This document shows positions 14,242 to 29,059 of a stretch of DNA of 49,652 bases, in pieces; the stretch's first letter is position 1; every line of letters starts with the position of its first letter. A program made the position numbers and the translations under genes. Source of the DNA: Cytophagaceae bacterium (GTDB lineage Bacteria; Bacteroidota; Bacteroidia; Cytophagales; Spirosomataceae); contig JAGOAA010000015.1 in the NCBI GenBank assembly GCA_017984215.1, forward strand, positions 1-49,652, given 5' to 3'. The notes under the pieces were generated by a model. It ran no database searches. It worked only from the letters and a program-made list of their open reading frames with translations, and had not been told where the DNA came from.

Positions 14242-14595
14242 CTATTGGACAGCGACTAAATCGCGTTTTACTTCCGTTAGGATGTTGAATGTTTTGGATT
14301 GAATGACCTGTTTTTTGGCATTTAGGATTTCCATTTTATACTTTCCGTCCAAAAGGTTTGCGAAGTTGTACAACTTCTTGCTTGCGATTACTTCTTGGTG
14401 GATGATATTTTGGTCTGCATCGTAAATGATGACTACAAGTTTCGAATTCGGTTCAGCGCTAACTAGGAATTTCATTCTTCCCACTTGGTTGATGCTAACA
14501 GGTAAGCTTAATCCGGCGGCCATTGCGTGGGGAGTCATGGACATGCTCGTTGCGAAGAAGGCAAGAGCCATTGCATTGATGATGTACTTTTTCAT
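14242..14595 (-). CDS. Small secreted protein of unknown function
   Basis: A 117-residue protein with a signal peptide (MKKYIINAMALAFFATSMSM..., likely cleavage after HAMA near residue 27). The mature ~90 residues alternate short beta-strands and turns (KFLVSAEPNSKLVVIIYD, IHQEVIASKKLYNF, GKYKMEILNAKKQVIQSKTFNI). This looks like one Ig-like or transthyretin-like sandwich similar in feel to DUF3244-type Bacteroidota proteins. No catalytic residues or cysteines are visible. It has its own strong promoter (14646-14675), a palindrome in the leader and a terminator, so it is a monocistronic, probably well expressed gene. It diverges from the TonB receptor gene. Confidence 0.7.
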   Translation of the reverse strand: MKKYIINAMALAFFATSMSMTPHAMAAGLSLPVSINQVGRMKFLVSAEPNSKLVVIIYDADQNIIHQEVIASKKLYNFANLLDGKYKMEILNAKKQVIQSKTFNILTEVKRDLVAVQ

Positions 14596-14645: not shown

Positions 14646-14675
14646 CAAAACTAAACTTTCCATGTTAGCTCCAAA
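14646..14675 (-). promoter_or_regulatory. Promoter of the small secreted protein gene
   Basis: Minus strand TTTG (forward CAAA, 14672-14675), 18-base spacer, then TAGTTTTG (forward CAAAACTA, 14646-14653). Close to the full Bacteroidota consensus TTTG-N19-TAnnTTTG. Confidence 0.7.
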
Positions 14676-14784
14676 TTAAATCCGAGTAAAATTTAACTTT
14701 TTCAAGAAAGTTCTTCTTAAAAAAATTATAATTCTCGGAATTGTGCAATTGTGTGCCGGGTTTTCATGAGCCCAGATTTCAATG

Positions 14785-14801
14785 TTATCAAATTGTTAAT
14801 G
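14785..14801 (+). promoter_or_regulatory. Second, upstream Pho-box-like direct repeat
   Basis: TTATCA, five bases, TTAATG: an 11-bp-period direct repeat like the promoter-proximal site. It begins 53 bp (about five helical turns) upstream of the one at 14838, so both would face the same side of the DNA. Confidence 0.4.
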
Positions 14802-14837
14802 AATGCAGAATTGTTTTAACCATTTGGTAAAGTATCG

Positions 14838-14882
14838 TTAATGCGACCTTAATCAAGGCGGTTTTTCTTTCGGGTAGTTTTG
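14838..14882 (+). promoter_or_regulatory. Pho-box-like promoter of the TonB receptor operon
   Basis: TTAATG-cgacc-TTAATC (14838-14854) is a direct repeat with 11-bp period. The second hexamer starts exactly 26 bp before the -7 box TAGTTTTG (14875-14882). No TTTG -33 element is present, as expected for an activator-dependent promoter. The same geometry recurs at both PiT genes. Known PhoB/PhoP sites are also direct repeats of about 11 bp; the B. subtilis PhoP hexamer is TTAACA-like. Regulation by a PhoB-type protein is inferred. Confidence 0.65.
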
Positions 14883-14894
14883 CATCGTAAAATT

Positions 14895-14908
14895 CACCAG
14901 TATTAAAA
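14895..14908 (+). promoter_or_regulatory. 5'-leader element CACCAGTATTAAAA
   Basis: A CACCARTATWAA-like string five bases before the ATG of the TonB receptor. Similar strings lie at 19555, 24217 and 25739 close to other start codons of the phosphate island. Possibly a translation-initiation or processing element; the motif is short and AT-rich. Confidence 0.3.
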
Positions 14909-14913
14909 TTCGC

Positions 14914-17712
14914 ATGAAATCCATTTACGTATTTATTCTATTATTACTCGTATCAACACCAATATTTGCACAAGAGGGTGGTACCATCCGAGGTACTATT
15001 AAAGATTCAAAAACAAAAGAAGACATTATTGGGGCAACGATTCTCGTTCAGGGAATTAATAAGGGTGCTGCTACTGACATCAACGGTTTTTTCTCTTTCG
15101 GTAAATTGCCTGTAGGCTCTTATTCATTGAAAATTTCATTCGTAGGCTACGAATCTAAAATTTATGAAGGTGTTAAAGTAGCGGCTAACCAAGTAACCGA
15201 ACTTAATCTTTCGTTAGTGGAAGAGTCGGCAACGTTAGCGGAGGTTAAAGTAGTCGCTCAGAAATTAACGAATACAGAGCAATCTGTGATTTCGGAAATT
15301 AAGGCGGCTCAATTGGTCGTTAGTGGTATTTCTGCCGCACAAATCACAAAGACATTGGATCGTACGGCTGCTGAAGTTGTGAAACGCGTTCCGGGTGTTA
15401 CGATTTTCGGAGAGCGCTTCATCAACATTCGTGGTTTGAATGAGCGTTACAACACCGTTCAATTAAATAATGCATTTGCGCCTTCGATGGAAACGGATGT
15501 TCGTTCGTTCTCATTTGACATTATTCCTGCAGGTCAAATTGACCGTATTTTGGTATTCAAATCTCCATCAGCTGAAATTCCAGGAGAATTTGCTGGGGGT
15601 GTTGTGAAAATCTTTACCAAATCTATTCCGGAAAATAACTTCTTAACACTTGATATCTCAAGCGCTTACCGCGAAGGAACAACCGGTTCAGCATTTTTTG
15701 CAACAAAAAATGCCAATATGGCTTGGACAGGTTTTGATCAAGGCTATTTCGATTTGCCTAAGTCTTTCCCAATCAATCGTAGCGCCTTAATCAACACGGG
15801 AGCTTCAGGTATTGATGCCATTGGTGCTTCCTTGAAGAACAATTGGGTGCCGGTAGAATCCAATGCAATGCCTGACATGCGTGCATCCTTAGCGGGTGGA
15901 CTTAAATTTGATTTGGGTTCCGTTCGTATTGGTAATGTGACGGCTGTCAACTATTCTAACACGCGTTCTATCTTTAAAATGGAGCGTAATGACTGGGGAT
16001 ATAGTAATATCCAAACGACAGGAGAGCCAGATGAGATTTTCAATTATGTTGATAATCAATATTCAAATGCGATTCGTTTAGGTGTTTCGCACAACTGGTC
16101 GGCACGTTTCGCAGGTGGATCTGTGATTGAATTCAAAAATTTATTTAATCAATTAGCGAATACACAATACATTCAGCGTTCAGGATTTGACAATGGTTCG
16201 AACTGGGATATTCGTTCATTCGATCAGGTATTCAGAGGTATTTACACGGGTCAATTGACCGGCCGTCATGAATTTCAAGAGGGTAGCCTAAAAACGGATT
16301 GGATGGTCGGTTATAATTCAGCTTATCGTAACCAGCCGGATTACAAGCGTTTCCGTTACAATGTAGATGGTTCATCGAGCAGCTTATTTATACCAAACGG
16401 TGCTGCACAGACATTTTTGTTGGGTCGTACCTACATCAACATGGACGAGTCATCTTACACAGCGGCGTTTAATCTTGATAAACGAATCAAAGTAGGCGAT
16501 GAGAAGGAATTGGATTTCAAAGCAGGTTTATTCTATGAAGATAAGGTACGTGATTTCGGTGCACGTAACATTGGTTATGTGAAATCGACGCCTTCTTTCC
16601 AGACGACCTTGCCTATCGACCAATTGTTTTCTCCTCAAAATTTCAACTCGAGAACGGGTGTGAAAATTGATGAGCAAACGAACCCGAATGACTCTTATAA
16701 CGCAACGAACAATTTGTTTGCCGCTTATGTCTCTGCGAATTATGCCTTAGGCAAGAAGTTTAATGCTATTGTAGGTGTTCGGGCAGAACAAAATAGCCAG
16801 AAGCTGAATTCAGCGGATTTGGTAGGGAAGGCCATCAACTACGATAACACGCGTTTGGATGTGTTGCCATCGATGAACTTGACCTATAATTTCACGGAGA
16901 AGTCCTTGTTACGTTTGGCTTACGGAAAGACATTGAATCGTCCAGAATTCCGCGAGTTAGCTCCTTTCTCTTTCTATGATTTTGTTAATAACCGTACGGT
17001 TTCAGGTAATCCAACTTTGAAGAATGCTGAGATTCAAAACTTTGATTTCCGTTATGAATTTTATCCTACACCGACGGAGTTAGTAAGTATTGCTGCATTC
17101 TACAAGGACTTCACAAACCCGATTGAGGTTGTGTTTGCTTCAGGTGCTAACCCTATCTTGAATTTCTCAAATGCGAAGTCGGCCTATTCAACGGGTATCG
17201 AAGCAGAATTCCGCAAGAACTTAAACGCGAATCAACCCAATACAATTTTGGGAAGAACGAGCTTAGTTTTCAACGGTACGTATATTTTCAGCCGCGTAAA
17301 ATTGGATGAGACGGTAGCGAAGGACCAATCTGATAATCGTCCTTTGCAAGGTCAATCGCCTTATATCGTGAATGCTGGTTTGAACTATAACGATACCAAA
17401 AAGGGCTTACAATTGAATTTTAATTACAACGTCATTGGTAAACGTATTTTCGCTGTAGGTAACAACTTTGGATCTCCATACCCAGATTGGTTTGAGATGC
17501 CACGTAATGTGATTGATTTTAGTTTCTCAAAGCAATTGACAAAAGCGATCATGCTTAAAGGTGGTGTGAGCGATATCTTGAATCAAGGAAATACGATTTT
17601 ACAAGATGGTAACCAAGATCAGGTTTTTGATCGTAACCAAGATCAGACCATTCAAAACTATGCGCCTGGTCGTGTAGCTTCATTAGGGCTTATTATTTCT
17701 CCATTTAATTAA
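14914..17712 (+). CDS. TonB-dependent receptor of the phosphate island
   Basis: A 932-residue outer-membrane receptor. Signal peptide MKSIYVFILLLLVSTPIFA (about 1-19), then a carboxypeptidase-D-regulatory-like beta-sandwich (about 22-105; GTIRGTIKDSKTKEDIIGAT). The plug domain follows (about 140-255; VVKRVPGVTIFGERFINIRG, GEFAGGVVKIFTKS) and then a 22-strand-type barrel ending VASLGLIISPFN. It lacks a SusD partner and is shorter than SusC, so it belongs to the other TonB-receptor type, whose partner here is the surface lipoprotein just downstream. The ligand is not deducible from sequence. Context and a Pho-box-like promoter suggest a phosphorus compound. A 26-base gap separates it from the next gene. 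Confidence 0.92.
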   Translation: MKSIYVFILLLLVSTPIFAQEGGTIRGTIKDSKTKEDIIGATILVQGINKGAATDINGFFSFGKLPVGSYSLKISFVGYESKIYEGVKVAANQVTELNLSLVEESATLAEVKVVAQKLTNTEQSVISEIKAAQLVVSGISAAQITKTLDRTAAEVVKRVPGVTIFGERFINIRGLNERYNTVQLNNAFAPSMETDVRSFSFDIIPAGQIDRILVFKSPSAEIPGEFAGGVVKIFTKSIPENNFLTLDISSAYREGTTGSAFFATKNANMAWTGFDQGYFDLPKSFPINRSALINTGASGIDAIGASLKNNWVPVESNAMPDMRASLAGGLKFDLGSVRIGNVTAVNYSNTRSIFKMERNDWGYSNIQTTGEPDEIFNYVDNQYSNAIRLGVSHNWSARFAGGSVIEFKNLFNQLANTQYIQRSGFDNGSNWDIRSFDQVFRGIYTGQLTGRHEFQEGSLKTDWMVGYNSAYRNQPDYKRFRYNVDGSSSSLFIPNGAAQTFLLGRTYINMDESSYTAAFNLDKRIKVGDEKELDFKAGLFYEDKVRDFGARNIGYVKSTPSFQTTLPIDQLFSPQNFNSRTGVKIDEQTNPNDSYNATNNLFAAYVSANYALGKKFNAIVGVRAEQNSQKLNSADLVGKAINYDNTRLDVLPSMNLTYNFTEKSLLRLAYGKTLNRPEFRELAPFSFYDFVNNRTVSGNPTLKNAEIQNFDFRYEFYPTPTELVSIAAFYKDFTNPIEVVFASGANPILNFSNAKSAYSTGIEAEFRKNLNANQPNTILGRTSLVFNGTYIFSRVKLDETVAKDQSDNRPLQGQSPYIVNAGLNYNDTKKGLQLNFNYNVIGKRIFAVGNNFGSPYPDWFEMPRNVIDFSFSKQLTKAIMLKGGVSDILNQGNTILQDGNQDQVFDRNQDQTIQNYAPGRVASLGLIISPFN

Positions 17713-17734
17713 TCAAACAATTTAATCAAACAAA
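17709..17734 (+). repeat. Tandem 13-bp repeat between receptor and lipoprotein genes
   Basis: TTAATCAAACAAT followed directly by TTAATCAAACAAA: 12 of 13 bases identical. The first unit overlaps the receptor stop codon; the second ends four bases before the ATG at 17739. It may be a translation-initiation enhancer or simple slippage. Confidence 0.6.
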
Positions 17735-17738
17735 AGTG

Positions 17739-19505
17739 ATGAAACGCTTACAAACAAACATGTTTAAAGTTTTCGCAATGTTAACTATTGCGGTAGTTAC
17801 ATTAGCGGGTTGTGCGAAGGAAGAGGAAGTTTTTCCTGTGCCAACAATCTCGACGTCGGGAACACTAGCGGGGATTCCGGGTGCGACCATTACGGTTAAG
17901 GCGACAATCAATGCGCCTGCAGGTATTAAGTCGATTACGGTTTTGAAAAACGGTGCGGCTTTTGATTCAAAAATAATGGCTGGCGAAAAAACAGCTGAGT
18001 ATTCGAAGGATTATGTGATTGAAGGAACAGCAGGTTCAACGGTGAACTTTACGGTACAGGTTACAGATAACCAAAACCAAGTTTCTTCGTTGGTATCAAT
18101 TCCCGTAACCGTTTCTGTCGTACCTCCTAAAACCATTGTGGATGTAGAAGGTGTGATCGAAGGAAACGTGACATGGACTGCGGATAAAATTTACCGTTTG
18201 AAAGGTTATGTACGAGTAGGTGAAGAAGCTACTTTTGGTACCATTACGAAGGTTGGTCAATTGACTATCCAAGCAGGTACGGTTATCATCGGTGATAAAG
18301 CTACTAAGGGAACTTTGGTTGTACACCGTGGTTCTAAATTGATCGCGATTGGTACTGCTGCTGCTCCGATTGTATTTACATCTGCTGAAGGTGTAGGCAA
18401 CCGTGCTCCAGGTGATTGGGGTGGAGTTGTTCTTTGTGGTAAAGCGCCAAACAACTTGACAGGTACAGTAGAATTAGAAGGCGGTTACAAAGGTTACCAC
18501 GGTGGTACGGATGCAGCAGATAACTCGGGTTCATTAAAGTATGTTCGTATTGAGTACGCGGGTATTCCATTGAATCCAAACCAAGAAATTAACTCATTAA
18601 CGATGGGTTCAGTAGGTTCAGGTACTACGCTTGAGTATATCATGGCATCTTTCGGTTTGGATGATTCATTTGAGTGGTTCGGTGGAACAGTAAACGCGAA
18701 ATATTTGATCGCTTACAAAGGAACGGATGATGACTTTGACGTAGATAATGGTTTCTCAGGAAACGTACAATTCGGTTTAGGATACCGTGACGGTAACTTA
18801 GCGGATGCTTCAGGATCAAACGGATTTGAAGTTGATAACAACTCAAACGGAGATGCGGCAACACCATTTACTTCTGCAACATTTGCAAACATGTCAATCA
18901 TTGGTGCTAAAGGAACGGCTTCATCTTATTTGGATTTCAACTTCCAAAATGGAGCGCAATTGCGTCGTAATAATAAATTGAAAATCTATAACACATTCAT
19001 TACAGGATACCCAACTGGTTTGTATATCGATAGCCAAAAAGGTTCTGCGAAAACAAACGCGGCTAATGGTGACTTAGTTGTTAAGAACGTTGTTATCGCG
19101 GGTACTTCAGGATGGGGATCAACAGGTTTCACAGCATTGAATACGAACGTGTATGGTTTCGGTGTTGCGGTAGCTGATGAAGAGCAAATTGCTAAAACAG
19201 GTTCTGCTGGTACAGTTGCAACAAAACCAATTTTGATTGGTGATGTTAAGGCATCTGATTGGTTCAAGGCAATCGCCGGGAACAAAGTATTGACATCGAC
19301 TGCCAATACAGGTATTGCTGCGACATTATGGTCAGCTCGTCCAACGTTAACTTTAACGGCTGGAACTTCAGAATCTTTGATCGGAACGGCTTTACCTGCA
19401 TTGCCAGGTATGACTGCAACGGATTACATCGGTGCATTCAAAGATTCAGATTGGACTGCTGGTTGGGCTGAATTCTCGCCTAACTCAGTACTTTACATTA
19501 AGTAA
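17739..19505 (+). CDS. Surface lipoprotein with Ig-like and beta-helix-like regions, TonB receptor partner
   Basis: A 588-residue lipoprotein: lipobox LAGC with Cys25, followed by AKEEE. Cys-X-K-E-E matches the Bacteroidota lipoprotein export signal that sends lipoproteins to the cell surface. Start at ATG 17739; the GTG one codon earlier is less likely. Residues about 30-130 form an Ig-like domain (TITVKATINAPAGIKSITVLK ... VTVSVV). From about 135 the repeating short strands with turns (GQLTIQAGTVIIGD, GTLVVHRGSKLIAIG, APIVFTS, GDWGGVVLCG) look like a right-handed parallel beta-helix. Asp-rich loops (GLDDSFEWFGGTVN, KGTDDDFDVDNG) may bind Ca2+ or another cation. It directly follows the TonB receptor and is probably its ligand-capturing partner. 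No enzyme motif is seen. Confidence 0.8.
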   Translation: MKRLQTNMFKVFAMLTIAVVTLAGCAKEEEVFPVPTISTSGTLAGIPGATITVKATINAPAGIKSITVLKNGAAFDSKIMAGEKTAEYSKDYVIEGTAGSTVNFTVQVTDNQNQVSSLVSIPVTVSVVPPKTIVDVEGVIEGNVTWTADKIYRLKGYVRVGEEATFGTITKVGQLTIQAGTVIIGDKATKGTLVVHRGSKLIAIGTAAAPIVFTSAEGVGNRAPGDWGGVVLCGKAPNNLTGTVELEGGYKGYHGGTDAADNSGSLKYVRIEYAGIPLNPNQEINSLTMGSVGSGTTLEYIMASFGLDDSFEWFGGTVNAKYLIAYKGTDDDFDVDNGFSGNVQFGLGYRDGNLADASGSNGFEVDNNSNGDAATPFTSATFANMSIIGAKGTASSYLDFNFQNGAQLRRNNKLKIYNTFITGYPTGLYIDSQKGSAKTNAANGDLVVKNVVIAGTSGWGSTGFTALNTNVYGFGVAVADEEQIAKTGSAGTVATKPILIGDVKASDWFKAIAGNKVLTSTANTGIAATLWSARPTLTLTAGTSESLIGTALPALPGMTATDYIGAFKDSDWTAGWAEFSPNSVLYIK

Positions 19506-19519
19506 TTTATAATTAGCTA

Positions 19520-19553
19520 GGACGTTGCCAAATGAGGCAACGTCCTTTTTTTT
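19520..19553 (+). terminator. Strong hairpin terminator or attenuator before the second surface lipoprotein gene
   Basis: A perfect 10-bp stem GGACGTTGCC / GGCAACGTCC with loop AAATGA is followed by eight T residues. This is a textbook intrinsic terminator for the receptor-lipoprotein transcript. It ends seven bases before the ATG at 19560, which leaves no room for a separate promoter in between, so the next gene must depend on readthrough or on a promoter inside the upstream gene. Confidence 0.85.
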
Positions 19554-19554
19554 A

Positions 19555-19568
19555 CACCAATGATAAAA
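19555..19568 (+). promoter_or_regulatory. 5'-leader element CACCAATGATAAAA overlapping a start codon
   Basis: Same CACCA-AT-rich string as near other island genes, here overlapping the ATG at 19560. Confidence 0.25.
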
Positions 19569-20111
19569 AATATATTAACTTTTTTTGCAGGCGTCATGCT
19601 ATTGGCTTCCTGTCATTCCAAAGACGAAGTAGGCTACTATTTTTCTGACGCTGAACGTGATACGCTGTTGACGAATATCATTACGTACATGGGAGAAAAA
19701 GCTACCTATTCAACAGATTCAACAAAATTTCAGGCACAATTCAGACCTGAATATGTTAGCCGTTTACCACTTTATCATTTTGTTCATTTGACCAAAGATG
19801 AAGCGGGCACTTATTTTTATTTAATTAGTCGGCCCGTGGCGGGTCGAAAGGATTTACGAAGGGGAGTAGTAGGTCGATTCATCTTAAAACCGGAATCTAC
19901 GGATATACTTGCTTTTGAAGAGGTTGTTAACACGCCGCACTTTGATGACGAAACCGTGAAGGAACGTGGGGCTTTTTTATTTAAGGCACTTGTCCGTGAA
20001 GGGAATTTAAACGCGTATTTGCCCATGAAACATTATGTGGAATGGCCAGATTCGACACTAAAATATGACAAAAAAACCCATAATTGGGTTTCTACGATAT
20101 CGGGTTTGTAA
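19560..20111 (+). CDS. Second predicted surface lipoprotein, function unknown
   Basis: A 183-residue lipoprotein: MIKNILTFFAGVMLLASC, lipobox LASC, Cys18. The residues after it, HSKDEV, contain K-D-E, a fit to the Bacteroidota surface-export signal. The mature part is alpha/beta with charged segments (DAERDTLLTNIITYMGEKATY, FVHLTKDEAGTYFYLISRPV, RRGVVGRFILKPE). I recognise no family. Position behind the receptor and Ig/beta-helix lipoprotein suggests it is part of the same surface complex, perhaps at lower level because of the hairpin at 19520. A hairpin at 20141-20169 ends the unit. Confidence 0.7.
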   Translation: MIKNILTFFAGVMLLASCHSKDEVGYYFSDAERDTLLTNIITYMGEKATYSTDSTKFQAQFRPEYVSRLPLYHFVHLTKDEAGTYFYLISRPVAGRKDLRRGVVGRFILKPESTDILAFEEVVNTPHFDDETVKERGAFLFKALVREGNLNAYLPMKHYVEWPDSTLKYDKKTHNWVSTISGL

Positions 20112-20140
20112 CCTACGATTTTATATTGGTGTAATATAGT

Positions 20141-20169
20141 AAATGTCGGCAGGTCTCCTGTCGACATTT
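20141..20169 (+). terminator. Terminator-like hairpin after the second lipoprotein gene
   Basis: Arms AAATGTCGGCAGG and CCTGTCGACATTT form a 13-bp stem with a single wobble and a three-base loop, followed by CTTGTTTGG. Strong stem, moderate T tail. It separates the lipoprotein from the phosphatase gene. Confidence 0.65.
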
Positions 20170-20246
20170 CTTGTTTGGAGCGAGTTGAAATGATAAATTT
20201 TCGTGTAATTTAGAACAAGTTTAAAGGAAACCTATTTATCAATCTT

Positions 20247-21311
20247 ATGCGTCAATTTTTATTTTTTTCTTTGTTGATGACTTTGTTTATTTCGCCGGCA
20301 TACAGTCAAAAGTTGGCCGACCACCGTGTTATCGTCATCATGACCGACGGGTTTCGTTGGCAAGAAGTTTTCGGAGGAATGGATTCATCCATTGTAAAAG
20401 TGAAGCGTTTCCACCACGGGGATAGCGCGCGCTTAGTTAAGCAGTATTGGGCACCAGATGCTGAGACTCGCCGTGAAAAATTATTGCCTTTTTTTTGGAA
20501 TACAATAGCTAAACAGGGCCAGATTCATGGTAATCGTAGCAAAGGATCACTTGTGAATGTTGCAAATCCCTATTGGTTTTCCTATCCAGGATACAGTGAG
20601 TTATTAACAGGCCAGGTTGATACATCCGTGAATTCGAATGATTACAAGGCGAATCCCAATACGAACTTTTTTGAGTACTTGAATAGCCTAAACGCCTATA
20701 AAGGTTCGGTTGCGGCTTTTGGAGCTTGGGATGCGTTTGATCGAATTTTAAATGAAAAGCGTGCGGGTTTTCCGGTTATTAATGCTTTTGATGATTATAA
20801 TTCCTATGTAAAAAGTAAGGATAGCGATTTACTTTCACGCATGACGAAGGATTCTTTCCGCGCGTTTGGGGATGCGGAGGTTTTGGATGGGTTTATGCAT
20901 TACCAAGCGATGGATTATTTGAAAAATAAGAAACCCAAAGCCATGTTCATTTCCTACGGCGAAACGGACGAATTTGCACATGAAGGCCATTATGGACATT
21001 ACCTGAATGCGGCGCATCAATTCGACGCTTGGTTGGCTGATATTTGGCGATTCGTTGAATCAGACCCCTTATACAAAGGTAAAACGACCCTATTAATCAC
21101 GACGGATCATGGTAGAGGAGATAAGAATAAATATGAATGGACATCACATGGAGAAAAGGTGAAAGATTGCCATGAGATTTGGTATGCCATGCTGGGGGCC
21201 AAAGTCCCTAGGTTGGGTGAGGTACAATCTCTAGAACAAGTGTATCAAAAAGACTTGATTCATTTTGTTGCTAAGATCATGGAGATTCCTTTTAGCAGTA
21301 GGCCCAACTAG
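20247..21311 (+). CDS. Secreted alkaline-phosphatase-superfamily enzyme
   Basis: A 354-residue secreted enzyme with signal peptide MRQFLFFSLLMTLFISPAYS (cleavage near 20-21). It keeps the metal-site layout of the alkaline phosphatase superfamily: Asp34 (VIVIMTDGFRW), candidate nucleophile Ser117 in PGYSELLTG, Asp241 and His245 (GETDEFAHEGH), Asp287-His288 (TTDHGRGD) and His301 (TSHGE). This set supports a two-metal phosphomonoesterase or phosphodiesterase, not a broken copy. Exact substrate is open; phosphoesters are likely given the neighbours. No Pho-box-like repeat is seen in its 135-base upstream region. A weak TTG-N18-TAATTTAG (20185-20213) could be the promoter. Confidence 0.85.
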   Translation: MRQFLFFSLLMTLFISPAYSQKLADHRVIVIMTDGFRWQEVFGGMDSSIVKVKRFHHGDSARLVKQYWAPDAETRREKLLPFFWNTIAKQGQIHGNRSKGSLVNVANPYWFSYPGYSELLTGQVDTSVNSNDYKANPNTNFFEYLNSLNAYKGSVAAFGAWDAFDRILNEKRAGFPVINAFDDYNSYVKSKDSDLLSRMTKDSFRAFGDAEVLDGFMHYQAMDYLKNKKPKAMFISYGETDEFAHEGHYGHYLNAAHQFDAWLADIWRFVESDPLYKGKTTLLITTDHGRGDKNKYEWTSHGEKVKDCHEIWYAMLGAKVPRLGEVQSLEQVYQKDLIHFVAKIMEIPFSSRPN

Positions 21312-21314
21312 TAT

Positions 21315-21359
21315 TTAATAATTTGGTAACATCCATCGGTCATGAGATGCTTACCTTCG
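21315..21359 (+). promoter_or_regulatory. Pho-box-like promoter of the first PiT gene
   Basis: TTAATA-atttg-GTAACA (21315-21331) is an 11-bp-period direct repeat. The second hexamer starts exactly 26 bp before TACCTTCG (21352-21359), a one-mismatch -7 box. It lies in the 69-base gap between the phosphatase stop and the PiT ATG at 21381. Same geometry as at 14838 and 24160. Confidence 0.6.
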
Positions 21360-21380
21360 CAATGTTTTAATAATAAACTT

Positions 21381-22838
21381 ATGTTTGGTCTAGATCCTAC
21401 GCTGTTATTCCTATTATGCTTTTGCTTAGTTGCGGCATGTGCTTTTGAGTTTGTTAACGGATTTCATGATACGGCTAACGCCGTAGCAACTGTCATATAT
21501 ACACACTCATTGAAGCCTACTCAAGCAGTTGTATGGTCAGGGTTTATGAACTTTCTTGGGCTGCTAACCGGCGGAGTTGGTGTTACGATGAGTATCATTG
21601 GCCTATTGCCAACCGAATTATTAGTGGATACCAATGTCTATCATTCCATGGCGATGGCATTAGCGCTGTTGATTTCTGCAATTATGTGGAATTTAGGCAC
21701 CTGGTATTTAGGAATTCCCGCATCTAGTTCTCATACCTTGATTGGTTCCATTATTGGTATTGGAGTGGGGCATGCATTGTTGCCAGAGGCTTCCAACAAA
21801 GGGCTTTCATCATTGAACTGGGATAAGGTGATTGAGATTGGGCAAGCCTTGTTGTTGTCTCCTTTATTTGGTTTTGCCTTGGCAATCATTTTGATGTACA
21901 TTTTAAAGAAGTCGGTAACTAACAAAGAAATCTTCAAGGAACCGAAGAAGAAATCACCTCCCCCTTTGTGGATTCGTTCGATATTAATTGCTACCTGTAC
22001 CTTGGTATCTTTTTTTCATGGGAGAAATGATGGCCAAAAAGGAATTGGCTTGGTGATGGTTATATTAATTGCGTTTTTGCCTGGTTTCTTTGCGGTCAAT
22101 ACTTCGCTTGACTTAAATGCGTTGCGAACACATTTGTCTACCGTACAGCAAATAACCGCGAAGATTGATTCGTCTGCATTGTCAATCAAAGAGCAAGATG
22201 CATTAGCCAAGATTAAGTCGTCCTCACAGGACCTTTTTGTTATTACATCCAAGAATCCTGGGATATCGACCTTAACAACGGATCAAAAATTTGCGATTCG
22301 CAAAGCGGCTTTGACGATTAACAAGCATTCAAAGAAGTTGATTGAAAGCGAATCTGTTGCTTTATCTGAGAATGATAAGCAAGCATGGAAAAAAGCAACG
22401 GCAGGGTCTAAAGCGCCCTTTTTCACCTACGGATCAAGTTCCAGCTCAGGTTTAGCTAGTGTGACCGATTTTGCGCCTAATTGGGTGATGTGGATGATTG
22501 CCTTATCTTTAGGTTTGGGTACGATGATTGGTTGGAAGCGCATCGTGATTACGATCGGCGAGAAAATCGGGAAGGATCATTTGACTTATGCGCAAGGGGC
22601 ATCCGCTGAGTTAATTGCATCTTTAACGATTGGATTAGCAACTGCGTATAAATGGCCGGTGAGTACGACACACGTATTAAGTTCGGGTATTGCAGGTACG
22701 ATGGTAGCCCAGCGCGGGATCAAGAATCTGCAAGGAGGAACTGTGCGCAGCATTGTTTTAGCTTGGGTCCTGACCTTGCCTGTTACGATAATTTTATCAA
22801 CCGTATTGTTTTTGTTTTTCCGTTGGATTGTCGGCTAG
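21381..22838 (+). CDS. PiT family inorganic phosphate permease, copy A
   Basis: A 485-residue inner-membrane phosphate transporter (PF01384). The duplicated PiT signatures are NGFHDTANAVATVIYT (26-41) and, in the second half, LTYAQGASAELIASLTIGLATAYKWPVSTTHVLSSG. About ten hydrophobic segments are visible. A hydrophilic insertion of roughly 120 residues separates the halves (about 245-365). Start chosen at ATG 21381 (MFGLDPTLLFLL); an upstream in-frame ATG at 21342 lies before the predicted transcription start. Copy B has the same length and start. The stop is two bases from the end of the convergent FAD oxidoreductase gene. Confidence 0.93.
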   Translation: MFGLDPTLLFLLCFCLVAACAFEFVNGFHDTANAVATVIYTHSLKPTQAVVWSGFMNFLGLLTGGVGVTMSIIGLLPTELLVDTNVYHSMAMALALLISAIMWNLGTWYLGIPASSSHTLIGSIIGIGVGHALLPEASNKGLSSLNWDKVIEIGQALLLSPLFGFALAIILMYILKKSVTNKEIFKEPKKKSPPPLWIRSILIATCTLVSFFHGRNDGQKGIGLVMVILIAFLPGFFAVNTSLDLNALRTHLSTVQQITAKIDSSALSIKEQDALAKIKSSSQDLFVITSKNPGISTLTTDQKFAIRKAALTINKHSKKLIESESVALSENDKQAWKKATAGSKAPFFTYGSSSSSGLASVTDFAPNWVMWMIALSLGLGTMIGWKRIVITIGEKIGKDHLTYAQGASAELIASLTIGLATAYKWPVSTTHVLSSGIAGTMVAQRGIKNLQGGTVRSIVLAWVLTLPVTIILSTVLFLFFRWIVG

Positions 22839-22840
22839 CT

Positions 22841-23974
22841 TTATTGATAGAGCTGGTTGATGAACATTTGCGTGTACGCAGGGCTAGTAGTAATACTTTT
22901 ATTTCCCATTCCCGCGAGTATGTGAATGATATCGTCCACTGTTTTTGAAAATACACCATCACCTACGTGTTCTAAATATGTATTTGTCCAGGTAGATTCA
23001 ATATCCCATGCGGGTAAATCAATGAAGGTTTTGGCCTTTTCAATTAGTCGGTTATTTGCCTCCATCGACAACTCAAATCCTAGATCAGATTGCTTTTGAA
23101 TGGATGTTGACCTGACCGTTTCACCTAGCAAAACAGAACCATCTTTCAATTGTTTAATGGTTAGTTTAATTTCATCTTGCGGCAAAGAATTGTCAAATGA
23201 AGGGCAAGATTGGCTACTTGAAAAGCACTCAACAGAAGCTCCCGAAATCAACGTGTTTTTCAATTGGGTACGTTGTGGAGATAGTTTAATTATTTGGGAC
23301 TGACATTTTTGCAATAGCTCATTAGGATAATGATTTGGGAGCAGTAATTGCGTTTGATTTCCACAAGCTAAGATAATGTGGTCAGCCCAAATTGTTTCCT
23401 GTTGAGACGTTACGATCTTAGCGATACCTCTTCGCTTTTCTACATCAACTACGAGTGTATTGGGCTTGTAATGTAGCCCCAGGTCACTTATGAGATGGTT
23501 TCTCAAGCGATGTGTCATTTCTTTCGAATCCACCACCCCTTCATTCGGCAGGTGAATTCCGCCAAAGATTTTATTCGTGATTAATGCAGGATTAAGTTGC
23601 TTACAATCGGCTGGAGAATATAATTGGGCTGGATAATTTCGTTCTTCAAAAAGTGCTTGTAATTCGTGCAGTAGGGTTAATTCTTGCGTGCTCTTTGCAA
23701 TATACCATGTACCTGTTTTGGAAAAAGTCAGGTCAAAGTTCTCTTGAAGCCCCTGGTAAATGCGTAGGGATTTCCGACTAATGTCAAACCATTTTGCGAA
23801 CGATTGCCCGGATGGATTAATATGTCCAAGGTTTCGAAAACTTGATTCAAATGGGGAATTGTCCTTTTCGATTAATAATACCGACTTTTTCTTGTTCAGC
23901 GCATGCAAGGCACAAAATGTACCTGTGATGCCGGCCCCAACGACAATTAAGTCATATTTTTTACTTTTCAACAT
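22841..23974 (-). CDS. FAD-dependent oxidoreductase (DAO family, TIGR03364-like)
   Basis: A 377-residue flavoprotein of the D-amino-acid-oxidase/glycine-oxidase fold. The Rossmann motif GAGITG (13-18) follows strand YDLIVV. Also seen are NLGHINPSGQ near 55-65, an ADHIILACGN ATG-like motif and a C-terminal GDGVFSKTVDDIIHILAGMGNKSIT FAD-contact region. It resembles the TIGR03364 clade, which is known for its neighbourhood with phosphonate-degradation genes, so an aminophosphonate or other amino-compound substrate is an inference. Start is ATG 23974; the TTG at 23989 is less likely. It lies inverted between two PiT genes, converging with copy A and diverging from copy B. I see no convincing Pho-box on its own promoter side. 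Confidence 0.85.
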   Translation of the reverse strand: MLKSKKYDLIVVGAGITGTFCALHALNKKKSVLLIEKDNSPFESSFRNLGHINPSGQSFAKWFDISRKSLRIYQGLQENFDLTFSKTGTWYIAKSTQELTLLHELQALFEERNYPAQLYSPADCKQLNPALITNKIFGGIHLPNEGVVDSKEMTHRLRNHLISDLGLHYKPNTLVVDVEKRRGIAKIVTSQQETIWADHIILACGNQTQLLLPNHYPNELLQKCQSQIIKLSPQRTQLKNTLISGASVECFSSSQSCPSFDNSLPQDEIKLTIKQLKDGSVLLGETVRSTSIQKQSDLGFELSMEANNRLIEKAKTFIDLPAWDIESTWTNTYLEHVGDGVFSKTVDDIIHILAGMGNKSITTSPAYTQMFINQLYQ

Positions 23975-24159
23975 GATCCAACAGTTCAATTTAATTCATT
24001 ACGAAGTTGCGGATTTAACATTAGTCAATCGTTATGCCTATGTAATCAAATTGTAAAGTAAATCAGTGTTTAATTGTTGTTTTGGCCATGTTTTGCACCA
24101 TTTTAACTTAAATCACAAGGTTAGCAAATCATCATGATTAATAATTCTATAATAAATGG

Positions 24160-24204
24160 TTAACAATTCCTTAACATTGGAATTGTTGGGATGTCTTATT
24201 TTTG
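24160..24204 (+). promoter_or_regulatory. Pho-box-like promoter of the second PiT-porin operon
   Basis: TTAACA-attcc-TTAACA (24160-24176) is a perfect direct repeat with 11-bp period, the best of the three sites. The second hexamer starts exactly 26 bp before the -7 box TATTTTTG (24197-24204). A TTG at 24177-24179 lies 17 bases before the -7 box. Expected transcription start is about 24211, 28 bases before the ATG at 24239. Confidence 0.7.
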
Positions 24205-24238: not shown

Positions 24239-25696
24239 ATGTTCGGACTCGATCCAACCTTGTTATTCTTGTTATTTTTCTGCCTTTTCGCCGCTTGTGC
24301 GTTTGAATTCGTAAATGGATTTCACGATACGGCTAATGCAGTAGCAACTGTAATTTACACACACTCCCTAAAGCCAACCCAAGCGGTGGTTTGGTCAGGC
24401 TTCATGAATTTCTTGGGTCTTTTGACTGGTGGTGTTGGTGTAACGATGAGTATTATCGGACTCCTACCCACGGAACTCCTCATGGATGCCGATGTGTATC
24501 ATTCTATGGCGATGGCTTTGGCTTTATTACTTTCAGCGATCATGTGGAATTTAGGAACATGGTATTTCGGAATTCCTGCATCTAGTTCCCACACGCTTAT
24601 TGGATCGATTATTGGTATCGGAGTGGGTCATGCTTTATTGCCTGAAAATTCAAATAAAGGTATTTCTGCAATCAACTGGGACAAGGCAATTGAAATTGGT
24701 CAAGCTTTATTGCTTTCTCCCCTTTTTGGTTTTGCCTTAGCAATTATCTTGATGTACATCCTAAAGAAGACTGTTAAGAATAAGGAAATTTTTAAGGAGC
24801 CCAAAAAACAATCGCCACCACCCATGTGGATTCGTGCCATTTTGGTTACGACATGTACATTGGTTTCTTTCTTCCACGGTCGGAATGATGGCCAAAAAGG
24901 AATTGGACTTGTCATGGTGATTTTGATTGCGTTTTTACCAGGCTACTTTGCTGTTAATACAAACTTGGATCTTGCGCAAGTTCAAACAAGCTTAACTTCC
25001 GTTAAGGCCATTACGGCTAAAATAGACACGCTACCTCTATCTGAGAAAGAACGTGAAAGCTATAATAAATTAGTGAAATCTTCGGCAGACCTAGATAAGA
25101 TATTAGCTTCAGGTGTAACAACGGCAACGATGTCGACTACTCAAAAATTTGATGTTCGTAAAGCTGCTTTGACGATCAACAAGCAATCAAAGAAATTGCT
25201 TGAAAGTGAATCGGTGGCTTTATCTTCTGGAGATAAAAAAATCTTAAAGAAGGCTACGCAAGGCGATAAAGCTCCATTCTTTAGTTTTGGCTCTACTTCT
25301 TCTTCCGGAATCGCTGGTGTGACGGATTTTGCACCTGCATGGGTGATGTGGATTGTTGCACTTTCATTAGGCTTAGGTACGATGGTAGGGTGGAAGCGAA
25401 TTGTCGTTACCATTGGCGAGAAAATTGGTAAAAACCATTTGACTTATGCACAAGGCGCTTCTGCAGAATTAATTGCCTCGTTAACCATTGGGTTAGCTAC
25501 GGCATATAAATGGCCTGTTAGTACGACACACGTATTGTCTTCTGGTATTGCTGGAACGATGGTTGCATCACGTGGAATCAAAAACTTACAAGGTGGAACC
25601 GTAAAGAGTATCGTGCTTGCTTGGGTTTTGACCTTGCCTGTAACGATCATCTTATCAGCGCTGTTATTTGTTTCATTCCGCTGGATTATCGCATAA
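24239..25696 (+). CDS. PiT family inorganic phosphate permease, copy B
   Basis: A 485-residue PiT permease, nearly identical to copy A in the membrane halves (NGFHDTANAVATVIYTHSLKPTQ near 26-48; TYAQGASAELIASLT in the second half). It diverges in the central hydrophilic region of about 120 residues. DNA differs at many synonymous sites, so the duplication is old or held under protein-level selection. ATG 24239 chosen by comparison with copy A; an upstream ATG at 24191 overlaps the -7 box. It is followed by an OprP/OprO-type porin with a small hairpin between them, so both are probably one transcript under the best Pho-box of the island. Confidence 0.93.
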   Translation: MFGLDPTLLFLLFFCLFAACAFEFVNGFHDTANAVATVIYTHSLKPTQAVVWSGFMNFLGLLTGGVGVTMSIIGLLPTELLMDADVYHSMAMALALLLSAIMWNLGTWYFGIPASSSHTLIGSIIGIGVGHALLPENSNKGISAINWDKAIEIGQALLLSPLFGFALAIILMYILKKTVKNKEIFKEPKKQSPPPMWIRAILVTTCTLVSFFHGRNDGQKGIGLVMVILIAFLPGYFAVNTNLDLAQVQTSLTSVKAITAKIDTLPLSEKERESYNKLVKSSADLDKILASGVTTATMSTTQKFDVRKAALTINKQSKKLLESESVALSSGDKKILKKATQGDKAPFFSFGSTSSSGIAGVTDFAPAWVMWIVALSLGLGTMVGWKRIVVTIGEKIGKNHLTYAQGASAELIASLTIGLATAYKWPVSTTHVLSSGIAGTMVASRGIKNLQGGTVKSIVLAWVLTLPVTIILSALLFVSFRWIIA

Positions 25697-25707
25697 TATA
25701 ATTTCTG

Positions 25708-25728
25708 GGGGCATCTTCAGGATGCCCC
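25708..25728 (+). terminator. Hairpin between PiT copy B and the porin gene
   Basis: Perfect 8-bp stem GGGGCATC / GATGCCCC with loop TTCAG, followed by ATTTACTACAC rather than a T run. It ends 23 bases before the porin ATG. A partial terminator or an mRNA-stabilising hairpin is likelier than full termination. Confidence 0.5.
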
Positions 25729-25751: not shown

Positions 25752-26957
25752 ATGAAAAAATTAGCCCTATTGCTAGGGGCCTTAGCTATGCTTTGGTCTT
25801 TAGTTTCGCAGGCACAAGCGCCCGCTCAAACAACACCTGCTACCAAAAAATGGTATGATTCTTTCAGCATTCGTGGCTATGGCCAAGTGCGTTACAATCG
25901 TTTGTTTGAAACCAACGATAAACTCAAATCAGAACAAGGGGACAAAAGTGTAGGAGATAATGGAGGGTTTTTCATTCGCCGACTGCGAATCATTTTCAGT
26001 GGACAGGTAAATGAGCGTGTTTATTTTTATATCCAACCAGACTTTGCAAGTAGTGCATCCTCCACTGGATTACATTTTGGTCAAATTCGGGATGCTTATT
26101 TTGATTTAGGCCTAGATAAACACAATGAATTCCGTTTTCGTGTAGGCCAAAGTAAAGTACCTTTTGGATTTGAAAATATGCAGTCTAGTCAAAATCGACT
26201 GCCTTTGGATCGCAATGACGCACTGAATAGCGCCGTCTCAAATGAACGTGATTTAGGTGTGTTTTTCTATTGGGCTCCTGCCAAAACACGCAAATTGTTT
26301 AGTTCATTAGTGAATGATGGACTTAAAGGTTCTGGCGATTACGGTGTTTTCGGAATCGGAGCTTATAATGGACAAACAGCCAATAAGCCTGAAGGAAATG
26401 ACGCACCTCATATTGTTGCACGCTTAAGCTACCCCGTTCAAATTAAAAATCAAATTGTTGAAGCGGGAATCCAAGCGTATTCCGGTCAATGGACGATGGC
26501 TTCTGATCAGTTAAGTACGGGTGTGAAAGTGAATAGCACGAAGACTTATTTAGACGAGCGAGTTGCTGCTAGTTTTGTATTATATCCAAAGCCGTTTGGT
26601 ATTCAAGCTGAGTACAATGTAGGAACAGGTCCTGAATTCAATAAAGCAACGGGAAGTATTGAGAATAAAAAGCTATCAGGTGGATATGCAACATTTTCGT
26701 ATAAGCTCGATATTGCGAAGCAAGTGCTAATCCCTTTTGTCCGTGTTCAGCATTACGAAGGTGGGAAAAAACATGAATTAGATGCACGTAGCTATCGCGT
26801 TGATGAAACAGAAATTGGCCTTGAATGGCAACCCAATAAAAACTTTGAATTAGTTACTATGTATACCATGGCAACGAAACGCGCCGAAGATTTTAAATTA
26901 CAAGAGAATTTACAAACAGGAAATTTGTTGCGTATCCAAGCGCAAGTTAATTTCTAA
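25752..26957 (+). CDS. Phosphate-selective porin O/P family protein
   Basis: A 401-residue outer-membrane porin. Signal peptide MKKLALLLGALAMLWSLVSQAQA (about 1-23), then a beta-barrel of alternating strands with the Porin_O_P hallmarks: FSIRGYGQVRYNRLF at the start of the barrel, GFFIRRLRIIFSGQVNERVYFYIQPDF, FRFRVGQSKVPFGFENMQSSQNRLPLDR, and a terminal LLRIQAQVNF with aromatic last residue. Start at ATG 25752; the longer frame from 25668 overlaps PiT copy B and has no signal peptide. Pairing with a PiT permease and a Pho-box-like promoter supports phosphate passage across the outer membrane, although this family also includes polyphosphate- and general anion-selective porins. Confidence 0.9.
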   Translation: MKKLALLLGALAMLWSLVSQAQAPAQTTPATKKWYDSFSIRGYGQVRYNRLFETNDKLKSEQGDKSVGDNGGFFIRRLRIIFSGQVNERVYFYIQPDFASSASSTGLHFGQIRDAYFDLGLDKHNEFRFRVGQSKVPFGFENMQSSQNRLPLDRNDALNSAVSNERDLGVFFYWAPAKTRKLFSSLVNDGLKGSGDYGVFGIGAYNGQTANKPEGNDAPHIVARLSYPVQIKNQIVEAGIQAYSGQWTMASDQLSTGVKVNSTKTYLDERVAASFVLYPKPFGIQAEYNVGTGPEFNKATGSIENKKLSGGYATFSYKLDIAKQVLIPFVRVQHYEGGKKHELDARSYRVDETEIGLEWQPNKNFELVTMYTMATKRAEDFKLQENLQTGNLLRIQAQVNF

Positions 26958-26996: not shown

Positions 26997-28139
26997 CTAC
27001 CAACTCGCCGATAATCCACCCTCATTCCGCGGGCTGAATCTAGGATTTTCAACTGGTTTACGAATTAAATCAGTTAATTGATACGCAAAATTAGCCTGAT
27101 GTACCCAATGCTGGTAATTATCCTGAACCGAAACATGTTTTGGAAGGTAGGCATGAAATATATCTAAATCAAAGGTTTTCGCTTTCACGCCGGCCCCCGA
27201 CAATTCGCCATCATGCGCATTGATCATCTGCTCAATGTGATTCGGTACAGGTACCATCATAACGGGCTTGCCCAAATACATCGCCTCAGCCACCGATTCA
27301 AAACCAGCCGTCGAGATTAGTCCTGCACAATTCGTCATTTTCGCCAAATACTTTTCGGCATCAATCGGATGAAAAGTCAAGGATTCCGAATATGCGTATA
27401 CGCTTTTGTGGCTTGGGTTATCCCAAAAACAATCCAATTTAACGGAAGGATGTTTTTCCGACCACGCCATGATTTCATCGGCTAGTCGATGGTGGGTTAA
27501 ATAAGCCAACCAGTTTTCACCTGCCTGTGGCTGAATTGATTTCACCTCCTGGCGTAACAACGGTGGGACCGTGATGATGTTTCTTTTCGTATCGTTTGGG
27601 ATATAGCGAAATGATAAACCCAAAAGTTTTTTCGAACCAATAGCCGTAATCTTAGTGTTGATGTTTAATAAAAAACGATCTAACGCTTTTTCTGCGATGG
27701 ACTCAAAGTTTTCATTTAAAAGCAGGTATTGATGTCCAATGGACATGCAAGGCACTTTAGAGCCCGATTTTAAATGATATAATCCCGTAATGGACTCATA
27801 AAAATTAACGATTCCATCCGGTTGCAATGCTTCGATGAATTCACCCAGTTGCGTGGCACTCTTCCAATAGGTGCCGAACTTTGTAAATGCCTGCATCGCT
27901 GTTTTACCTAGTTGGACCGATTTACCCTTCCCATAATTGATGGATGGGCTCTCATACTGAATGATGGGCGTATTGCCAATAAAATCAGCAAAAAAGCTTG
28001 GGATTTTTCTTCCTTCAAATGAACCGACCGCATAGCCAATCACTTCGTGTCCAGCCTCGCGTGCGATTTGAGTTAAGGAAATCGCTTGCGTTAAATGACC
28101 GCGACCTTCTCCTTGGATGGTAAAGATGAATCTGCCCAT
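26997..28139 (-). CDS. Glycosyltransferase family protein (GT-B, UDP-sugar type)
   Basis: A 380-residue GT-B-like protein. The N-terminus has GEGRGHLTQAISLTQIARE (11-29), the glycine-rich loop of the Glyco_trans_1_3/MGT-like families. The C-terminal half has LISTAGFESVAEAMYLGKPVMMVPV near 273-297, the donor-binding signature (ST/SGGxxSxxEAxxxGxPxxxxP). No membrane segment. It starts inside the 3' end of the LpxH-like phosphoesterase gene (49-base overlap), implying tight coupling. With that neighbour it may modify a lipid or envelope glycan; the acceptor is unknown. Confidence 0.85.
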   Translation of the reverse strand: MGRFIFTIQGEGRGHLTQAISLTQIAREAGHEVIGYAVGSFEGRKIPSFFADFIGNTPIIQYESPSINYGKGKSVQLGKTAMQAFTKFGTYWKSATQLGEFIEALQPDGIVNFYESITGLYHLKSGSKVPCMSIGHQYLLLNENFESIAEKALDRFLLNINTKITAIGSKKLLGLSFRYIPNDTKRNIITVPPLLRQEVKSIQPQAGENWLAYLTHHRLADEIMAWSEKHPSVKLDCFWDNPSHKSVYAYSESLTFHPIDAEKYLAKMTNCAGLISTAGFESVAEAMYLGKPVMMVPVPNHIEQMINAHDGELSGAGVKAKTFDLDIFHAYLPKHVSVQDNYQHWVHQANFAYQLTDLIRKPVENPRFSPRNEGGLSASW

Positions 28140-28903
28140 ATGGTTTTTAATTCAGATGTAAGATCAAAACTTGGATAATCAATTAATTGCCATTCACCCG
28201 CGTGTGTCTCCACCAAGGCCGTTAAGGATTCCACCCAGTCCCCCGAGTTCATGTAGGTTATCCCGTCGATTTGCTTAATTTCCGCTTTGTGAATGTGCCC
28301 ACAGATGATGCCATCTGCTCCTTTCGCTTTGGCTAATTCAGCCAACTTCTCCTCGAAATCCGAAATGAAATTCACGGCTGCCTTCACCTTTTGCTTGATG
28401 ACTTGCGATAAAGAATAATAAGGCTTGCCTTGCCAAGAACGGTATTGATTATACCATTTGTTTAGCCACAGAAGAAACGTATATCCTATGTCTCCTAGAT
28501 AGGCCAACCATTTCATTTGGCTGGTAATGCTATCAAAAATATCGCCGTGTGTGATAAAATACTTTTTGCCATGCGTGTTTAGCATGTAGTCTTGTCGGAT
28601 GGAGAATTGCTTCCCAATTTTCAAAGGCAATATCTGTTCCAAGAAATCATCATGATTCCCACGTAGGTAAATTACTTCCGTATCGAAACGGTCCATCATT
28701 TTCAACACCGCGCGGAAAAAACCGGTATGTTTCTTTTTCCAAGATCCTCCTTTTTTCAATTGCCATCCATCGATGATATCTCCATTGAGAATCAATTGAT
28801 GGCAAGAATTGGACTTCAGAAATTCGTTAACTTCTTTTGCTTTTGCTCCTTTACTCCCTAGGTGTAAGTCGGAGATGACGATTGTCTTGTAGGTTGGACG
28901 CAT
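28091..28903 (-). CDS. LpxH-like metallophosphoesterase (UDP-2,3-diacylglucosamine diphosphatase-like)
   Basis: A 270-residue calcineurin-like phosphoesterase. All blocks are present: DLH (Asp12, His14), GDIIDGW (Asp42), GNHD (Asn83, His84), HGDIFD (His119) and GHIH (His203, His205). This matches the LpxH-like proteins of Bacteroidota, which cleave UDP-2,3-diacylglucosamine to lipid X in lipid A synthesis. A hydrophobic segment near 138-150 could dock at the membrane. True LpxH activity is not certain, since genomes often carry several paralogues of this fold. ATG 28903. A -7 box (TACTTTTG, 28923-28930) lies upstream and the following glycosyltransferase gene overlaps by 49 bases. Confidence 0.82.
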   Translation of the reverse strand: MRPTYKTIVISDLHLGSKGAKAKEVNEFLKSNSCHQLILNGDIIDGWQLKKGGSWKKKHTGFFRAVLKMMDRFDTEVIYLRGNHDDFLEQILPLKIGKQFSIRQDYMLNTHGKKYFITHGDIFDSITSQMKWLAYLGDIGYTFLLWLNKWYNQYRSWQGKPYYSLSQVIKQKVKAAVNFISDFEEKLAELAKAKGADGIICGHIHKAEIKQIDGITYMNSGDWVESLTALVETHAGEWQLIDYPSFDLTSELKTIWADSSLPSKEKVAVI

Positions 28904-28922: not shown

Positions 28923-28930
28923 CAAAAGTA
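28923..28930 (-). promoter_or_regulatory. -7 box of the phosphoesterase-glycosyltransferase operon
   Basis: Minus strand TACTTTTG, an exact TAnnTTTG match, 19 bases before the ATG at 28903. No clear -33 element. Confidence 0.45.
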
Positions 28931-29059
28931 CATGTGCGCCAAGCCTAGTGTGTTACCTCTAAATTATCGAATCGTTAATTCATTTGCACCTATGTTCCTG
29001 TTTGTGCAATGGGGAACAAGTCGAACCTCCTGATACCGTAGTCCTTATCCCTATTCAAG

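Follow-up and report, generated by a model that had tools for sequence, protein, structure and literature searches.

A candidate Bacteroidota Pho box, with 11-bp repeats in phase with the −7 element, at a phosphate gene island of a Cytophagaceae bacterium

Known phosphate boxes and the island

Direct repeats of the TTAACA type with an 11-bp period form the PhoP box of Bacillus subtilis, where several dimers are bound at each promoter, and in Escherichia coli PhoB replaces the upstream promoter element. In Bacteroidota the −7 element reads TAnnTTTG, which we take to be the consensus of the phylum. The E. coli PhoB box is made of CTGTCAT direct repeats of 11 nt, to which the protein binds in tandem; tandem repeats of 11 bp are described as the footprint left by head-to-tail binding of PhoB-type regulators (PMC4415409). 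Among Bacteroidota, DAP-seq of the Riemerella anatipestifer PhoP gave the motif TTTAACA and autoregulation (PMC9603813), and the PhoB of Bacteroides fragilis binds a 512-bp fragment of the pstC promoter, for which the available part of the paper defines no box (PMC3547664). In Flavobacterium johnsoniae, phosphate depletion induces TonB receptors, PlcP, a glycosyltransferase and PhoB, but not the OprP porin encoded in the phoBR operon; the words motif, promoter and Pho box do not occur in the main text of that paper, which gives no binding motif (PMC8115612). A Pho box with a −7 spacing for Bacteroidota was not found in the open-licence literature.

The window analysed here is a stretch of 49,652 nt, which is contig C24 in the genome (G000; 2.43 Mb, 87% complete) of a freshwater bacterium whose PiT2 is closest, among named relatives, to those of Aquirufa antheringensis (92%) and Sandaracinomonas limnophila (87%), both Cytophagales. 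It contains an island of phosphate genes preceded by boxes of TTAACA-type half-sites (Table 1). Half-site and 11-bp period are essentially identical to those of the B. subtilis PhoP box, whereas the phylum is another one, the promoter has a TAnnTTTG −7 element, the PiT promoters share a conserved spacer, ATTnC, and the array is in phase with the −7 element. In the main arrangement the distance to the −7/−10 element is longer by about one 11-bp step than in E. coli, as we take the geometry of the latter to be. The two 11-nt direct repeats are shared with the E. coli PhoB box, but the half-site is TTAACA here and CTGTCAT there (PMC4415409). The Riemerella motif likewise belongs to a regulator of Bacteroidota, with half-site TTTAACA and autoregulation; however, in the available part of the paper it comes without repeat phase or −7 distance, and it is set against ArcA and not termed a Pho box (PMC9603813). 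The island resembles the low-phosphate-induced gene set of F. johnsoniae (PMC8115612, in the part available) in its TonB receptor, glycosyltransferase and PlcP-like gene, and a porin, OprP, also belongs to the phoBR operon of that species. Here the PhoB-like gene lies outside the island, and no match to PstC was found in the 87%-complete genome G000. The original prediction had considered that a defined Pho box would be new for this bacterial group: the half-site has been published for Riemerella PhoP (PMC9603813) and is not entirely new, and the fixed geometry was not found in the open-licence literature. We are thus dealing with a known kind of element, whose architecture in Bacteroidota seems undescribed.

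Table 1. Genes and predicted promoter elements of the island (positions in the window)
Feature	Position	Strand	Remarks
ORF of 117 aa, divergent from the TonB receptor	14242..14595	−	No Pfam family at E 0.001
−7 element TAGTTTTG of the 117-aa ORF	14646..14653	−	26 bp from TTAATT, 15 bp from CTAACA
Box of the 117-aa ORF	14663..14679	−	TTAATT (14679), CTAACA (14668)
Distal inverted box TTAACAATTTGATAACATTG	14780..14799	−	Between divergent genes; conserved in relatives
TonB-receptor box, half-sites in 11-bp phase	14816..14854	+	TTAACC 14816, GTAAAG 14827 (weak, 3/6), TTAATG 14838, TTAATC 14849; layout kept in relatives
TonB −7 element TAGTTTTG	14875..14882	+	26 bp after start of last half-site
TonB-dependent receptor	14914..17712	+	Pfam
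Three ORFs 3' of the TonB receptor	17736..21311	+	589 aa, 183 aa, 354 aa
PiT1 box TTAATA-N5-GTAACA	21315..21331	+	Half-sites 21315, 21326
PiT1 −7 element TACCTTCG	21352..21359	+	26 bp after start of second half-site
PiT1 phosphate transporter (PHO4)	21381..22838	+	Pfam
PiT2 box, four 11-bp-phased half-sites	24138..24176	+	Half-sites 24138, 24149, 24160 (TTAACA), 24171 (TTAACA); model match E 1.2e-8
PiT2 −7 element TATTTTTG	24197..24204	+	26 bp after start of last half-site
PiT2 phosphate transporter (PHO4)	24239..25696	+	Pfam
Phosphate-selective porin O/P	25753..26957	+	Pfam, run from 25668
Calcineurin-like phosphoesterase and glycosyltransferase	26997..28903	−	Pfam/NCBIfam
PlcP-like −7 element TACTTTTG	28923..28930	−	26 bp after start of GTAACA
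PlcP-like operon box	28951..28978	−	TTAACG 28978, ATAATT 28967, GTAACA 28956

Three island promoters, those of the TonB receptor and of the two PiT genes, had been described in the original prediction as having hexamers with an 11-bp period, the second of which begins 26 bp before the −7 element. Read directly at 14838, 21315 and 24160, this description was exact and all three sites were confirmed; two more predicted promoters, of the PlcP-like operon and of the divergent ORF, had been overlooked. Scanning the window with a rule that asks for a 6/6 TAnnTTYG, a half-site at 26 bp and one or several additional half-sites at 15, 37, 48 or 59 bp gave six matches: TonB, PiT1, PiT2, the PlcP-like operon (28930, minus strand), ORF 14242–14595 (14653, minus strand) and position 17660 on the minus strand, which is located within a coding sequence and is probably due to chance. 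The PlcP-like promoter has orthologous promoters in relatives. No −7 element was found at 26 bp from the distal inverted box.

The three ORFs 3' of the TonB receptor are probably in one operon with it, judging from their spacing; the Pfam search gave no family for the 589- and 183-aa products, and a weak match to a phosphodiesterase/metalloenzyme superfamily for the 354-aa one. The orthologues of the 117-aa ORF show, by eye, a signal-peptide-like start. The porin O/P gene, likely starting at 25753 (by eye), is probably co-transcribed with PiT2; a GGGGCATC/GATGCCCC hairpin, recognised by eye at 25708–25728 between the two genes, is possibly an attenuator inside this operon. The calcineurin-like phosphoesterase is called PlcP-like by neighbourhood only; together with the glycosyltransferase it is possibly a lipid-remodelling pair, by analogy with the systems described in the available parts of two papers (PMC4796936, PMC8115612). 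With no PstC match in G000, boxed PiT genes and a porin at hand, PiT may act as the starvation-induced transporter in this organism.

Conservation and gene specificity of the box

A genome scan for TTAAYA-N5-TTAAYA alone remained at chance level: the exact motif occurred 8 times in the 2.43-Mb genome, compared to 9 for the reversed control, and among the 8 sites, 6 of which are inside an ORF of at least 80 aa on either strand, PiT2 alone has a 6/6 TAnnTTYG at 10–59 bp. Therefore, the hexamer pair by itself is uninformative, and it was dropped as a genome-wide marker. With up to 3 mismatches allowed, the extended PiT box TTAACAATTnCTTAACATTG had 3 occurrences genome-wide, compared to 1 for the control, and 2 of the 3 sites are inside the window.

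This longer box is conserved in the PiT upstream regions of relatives, including the spacer ATTnC between the half-sites. Of 61 regions, 35 contained the 20-mer with 0–2 mismatches, whereas among 3050 Markov-shuffled ones none came closer than 4. Moreover, the distance between the second half-site and a −7-like element (5/6 or 6/6) was exactly 26 bp in 40/61 PiT regions, 31 of which had a 6/6 element; in these 40 regions the box was 69–194 bp from the ATG. The next commonest distance was 38 bp (9 regions). No −7-like element was found at 26 bp in the other 21 PiT promoters, 13 of which, from related loci, showed a weak nAnCTTTR at 37 bp (4/6 in 12 cases and 5/6 in one), with another distance scoring equal or better in several of the 13. 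A 5/6 element at 37 bp was present in the PiT promoters of L058 and L087, and a −7-like element at 28 bp in those of L059 and L060; nothing clear as a −7-like element was seen in L017, L065, L072 and L085. MAG labels such as Spirosoma fluviale, Chitinophaga pinensis and Chryseobacterium gleum, noticed at L013, L060 and L062, look unreliable when compared to the sequence relations that we found.

To evaluate gene specificity, box plus −7 element were searched on both strands of the window and of 60 loci, mostly from Cytophagales (2.16 Mb). PiT was the criterion for choosing these loci, many of which are close relatives of one another, so that the sample is neither random nor independent. In these PiT-selected loci, 79 of the 92 matches preceded homologues of island genes, and at 26 bp all matches did so (51/51), before homologues of PiT, TonB, PlcP-like and partner genes, some of the TonB assignments resting on 25–33% identity. 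The other 13 matches were elsewhere, none of them at 26 bp. It had been anticipated that the prediction would fail if the same repeat and spacing were equally common before unrelated genes, and in the PiT-selected loci they are not.

Three of the 13 outlying matches have the 15-bp distance and are found before a 231-aa ORF which, from its copy in L049, encodes a phosphonatase-like hydrolase. In L049:15974-16706, L176 and L197 a phosphonatase-like HAD hydrolase (TIGR03351, below cut-off) is divergent from a TonB receptor, and Pho-type boxes are close to this pair, which is possibly devoted to phosphonate scavenging. A PWM scan of the same loci revealed three sites scoring above 20 without an island homologue downstream (L029:18010, L039:19335 and L061:179). 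The strong box at L029:18010, which has no 6/6 −7 element, is found about 8 kb past PiT and precedes an aldo/keto reductase, as seen in L208, an overlapping copy of the locus; L033 has a weaker site at the equivalent place.

The pooled distances of 38 matches were distributed as follows: 15 bp (3), 16 (1), 19 (1), 26 (21), 28 (1), 30 (1), 37 (5), 38 (1) and 48 (4). Hence 33 of the 38 fell at 15, 26, 37 or 48 bp, against a total of 0.30 per run for the nulls (four sets); these are counts of matches and not of promoters, a long array counting at several distances, and near-duplicate matches were dropped within each pooled set. The pooled pst set comprised 33 of 50 regions, leaving out 6 refetched genomes and 11 regions without a fixed criterion; the repeat with all 50 gave the identical ten matches, and 0 in the antisense control. 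The rigid 26-bp spacing of the original prediction was thus confirmed as the main distance, but 15, 37 and 48 bp also occur. Taken together, in loci chosen by PiT and not as a random genome sample, the elements are direct repeats with an 11-bp period upstream of phosphate-acquisition genes and not of unrelated ones, as in a Pho box, and their −7 element reads TAnnTTTG, as in a −33/−7 promoter.

The PhoB-like regulator gene and promoters of other families

The genome was searched with R1, a sequence-only model trained on 36 promoters of relatives only; ten matches at E up to 10 were obtained, with 150 of 1211 first-look candidates scored. Among these 150, the PiT2, PiT1, divergent-ORF and TonB sites took ranks 1, 2, 6 and 7, respectively, and the gene of a PhoB-like regulator took rank 5; the PlcP-like site was missed. 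Rank 1 alone was significant (E 1.2e-8), ranks 2–7 having E 0.04–0.63. The match at the regulator gene spans the box and not the −7 element; those at TonB and at the divergent ORF span a half-site plus the −7 element only. For the weak R1 matches L152, L153, L157, L158 and L159, the genes that they precede or overlap had, by eye, no evident phosphate link. Sites resembling TTAGCAATTCCTTAGCATTG were noticed at L202:735 and L203:2019 and also in G007, G016, G018, G024 and G036, often two per genome; their half-site differs from the box, and the two that were read precede ORFs of 258 and 268 aa without Pfam family.

The candidate regulator is a 231-aa protein of the OmpR/PhoB type, encoded at G000:C31. 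The best match to NF053854 (Bacteroides PhoB) was one orthologue in 10/10 genomes of the genus, always below cut-off; since the protein reaches 212 of the 296.2 bits set for TIGR02154 and 200.8 of the 270 bits set for NF053854, we named it PhoB-like only. The box was present on its gene in 10/10 genus genomes, and in 0/20 cases for the next two regulator groups. All 10 copies have TATMTTTG at 16 bp from the second half-site, the box being therefore 16/27 bp from the −7 element and one base out of phase. No adjacent phoR kinase gene was found in G000, G007 and G036, where the neighbours encode an AI-2E-type transporter and a GHL10 hydrolase. An autorepression reading of the 16-bp box was dropped, since two pst promoters have a near-identical 15/26 layout.

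Among 20 fetched pst upstream regions, 9 had at least one strong sense pair (L271, L275, L276, L278, L281, L282, L283, L285 and L287) and 11 had none; the strong pairs were 21 in sense vs 6 in antisense orientation, five of the 9 regions having antisense pairs as well. With the full rule and a 6/6 −7 element, all 50 pst regions gave ten matches (two at 15, four at 26, two at 37 and two at 48 bp), which came from 3/50 regions, L275, L278 and L281, two of them of one genus. When PstC loci were tested across the phylum, 26 of 30, several of which are GC-rich, showed no strong pair in about 1.6 kb. Upstream of phoB-like genes, all five sampled f22 genomes had three half-sites, the third of which is followed at 26 bp by a −7-like element (6/6 by script in two genomes and 5/6 by eye in three), and in a set of 24 phoB-like upstream regions 7 had a pair rarely matched by shuffles, the other 17 showing no unusual pair.

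Proposed mechanism and alternative explanations

We consider it highly probable that the repeats are a Bacteroidota Pho box, at which a PhoB-type regulator would be bound over the −33 region. The idea of a single Pho-box-like type of activator site at this position, put forward in the original prediction, is supported at the sequence level by cross-genus conservation, by specificity in the PiT loci and by the box on the regulator gene; in other families, some pst and phoB-like genes have similar boxes, which is a further argument in its favour. We infer the identity of the binder, its role in activation and phosphate as the signal. A PhoB-type response regulator, probably the 231-aa G000:C31 protein, would bind head to tail to 11-bp repeats of a predicted unit (C/T)TTAACA(A/T)T, and its last dimer would occupy the −33 region on half-sites that begin 26 and 37 bp ahead of TAnnTTTG. 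Since half-sites at these distances put the proximal dimer on the −33 region, the activator would most likely take the place of the −33 contact and, under phosphate limitation, bring RNA polymerase and its housekeeping sigma factor to the −7 element. Extra dimers would stack upstream at 48 and 59 bp; alternatively, as suggested by two pst regions and the regulator gene, a half-site may be used one step nearer, at 15–16 bp. Shifts by whole repeats would keep the regulator on about the same DNA face.

A sigma factor would also impose a spacing as rigid as that at 26 bp, and the second TTAACA, sitting over the −33 region, could be the −33 element of an alternative sigma factor and not an activator site. 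We regard this as very unlikely: a sigma factor leaves unexplained that as many as four half-sites follow one another in 11-bp phase and that they are also found at 15, 37 and 48 bp, the −7 half is an ordinary TAnnTTTG, as we take the consensus to be, and the box is present on an OmpR/PhoB-type regulator gene. The box might also belong to another regulator of the OmpR family, ArcA-like or related to the cell envelope, the phosphate link being indirect. The regulator of the genus has no adjacent kinase and is below the PhoB cut-offs, a strong box-like site also precedes the aldo/keto reductase, and the Riemerella PhoP motif was compared with ArcA (PMC9603813, in the part available). However, the 51/51 matches at 26 bp before PiT, TonB, PlcP-like and partner homologues, in PiT-selected loci, and the boxes at pst genes in some other genomes and at the phosphonatase-like hydrolase make such a regulator a rather improbable candidate. 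As for chance, AT-rich DNA could be rich in such hexamers, three of which were picked, and the exact pair does occur 8 times genome-wide against 9 in the control; for the full rule, however, this is refuted by the 51/51 matches at 26 bp and by the 40/61 PiT promoters, and it is also countered by the genome counts of TTAACAATTnCTTAACATTG, the shuffled regions and the 11-bp phase, leaving chance a practically negligible probability.

Going beyond the preferred reading of a Pho box, TTAACA half-sites at 15 + 11n bp from TAnnTTTG might represent a code specific for the phylum, a tentative proposal to which we give slightly less than even weight, its probability being lowered by the origin of the ten pst matches from three regions. 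Within such a code, dimers would move relative to the polymerase by full 11-bp repeats; 26 bp would be the strong setting and 15 or 37 bp would be alternatives to it, and here, too, our confidence stays just short of one half. If this were true, the phosphate regulon could be read from many genomes of the phylum. For the bacteria considered here, a spacing rule so strict would make the phosphate regulon predictable from sequence, and the box would offer a clean test case for a PhoB-type activator acting with the unusual −33/−7 promoter of the phylum.
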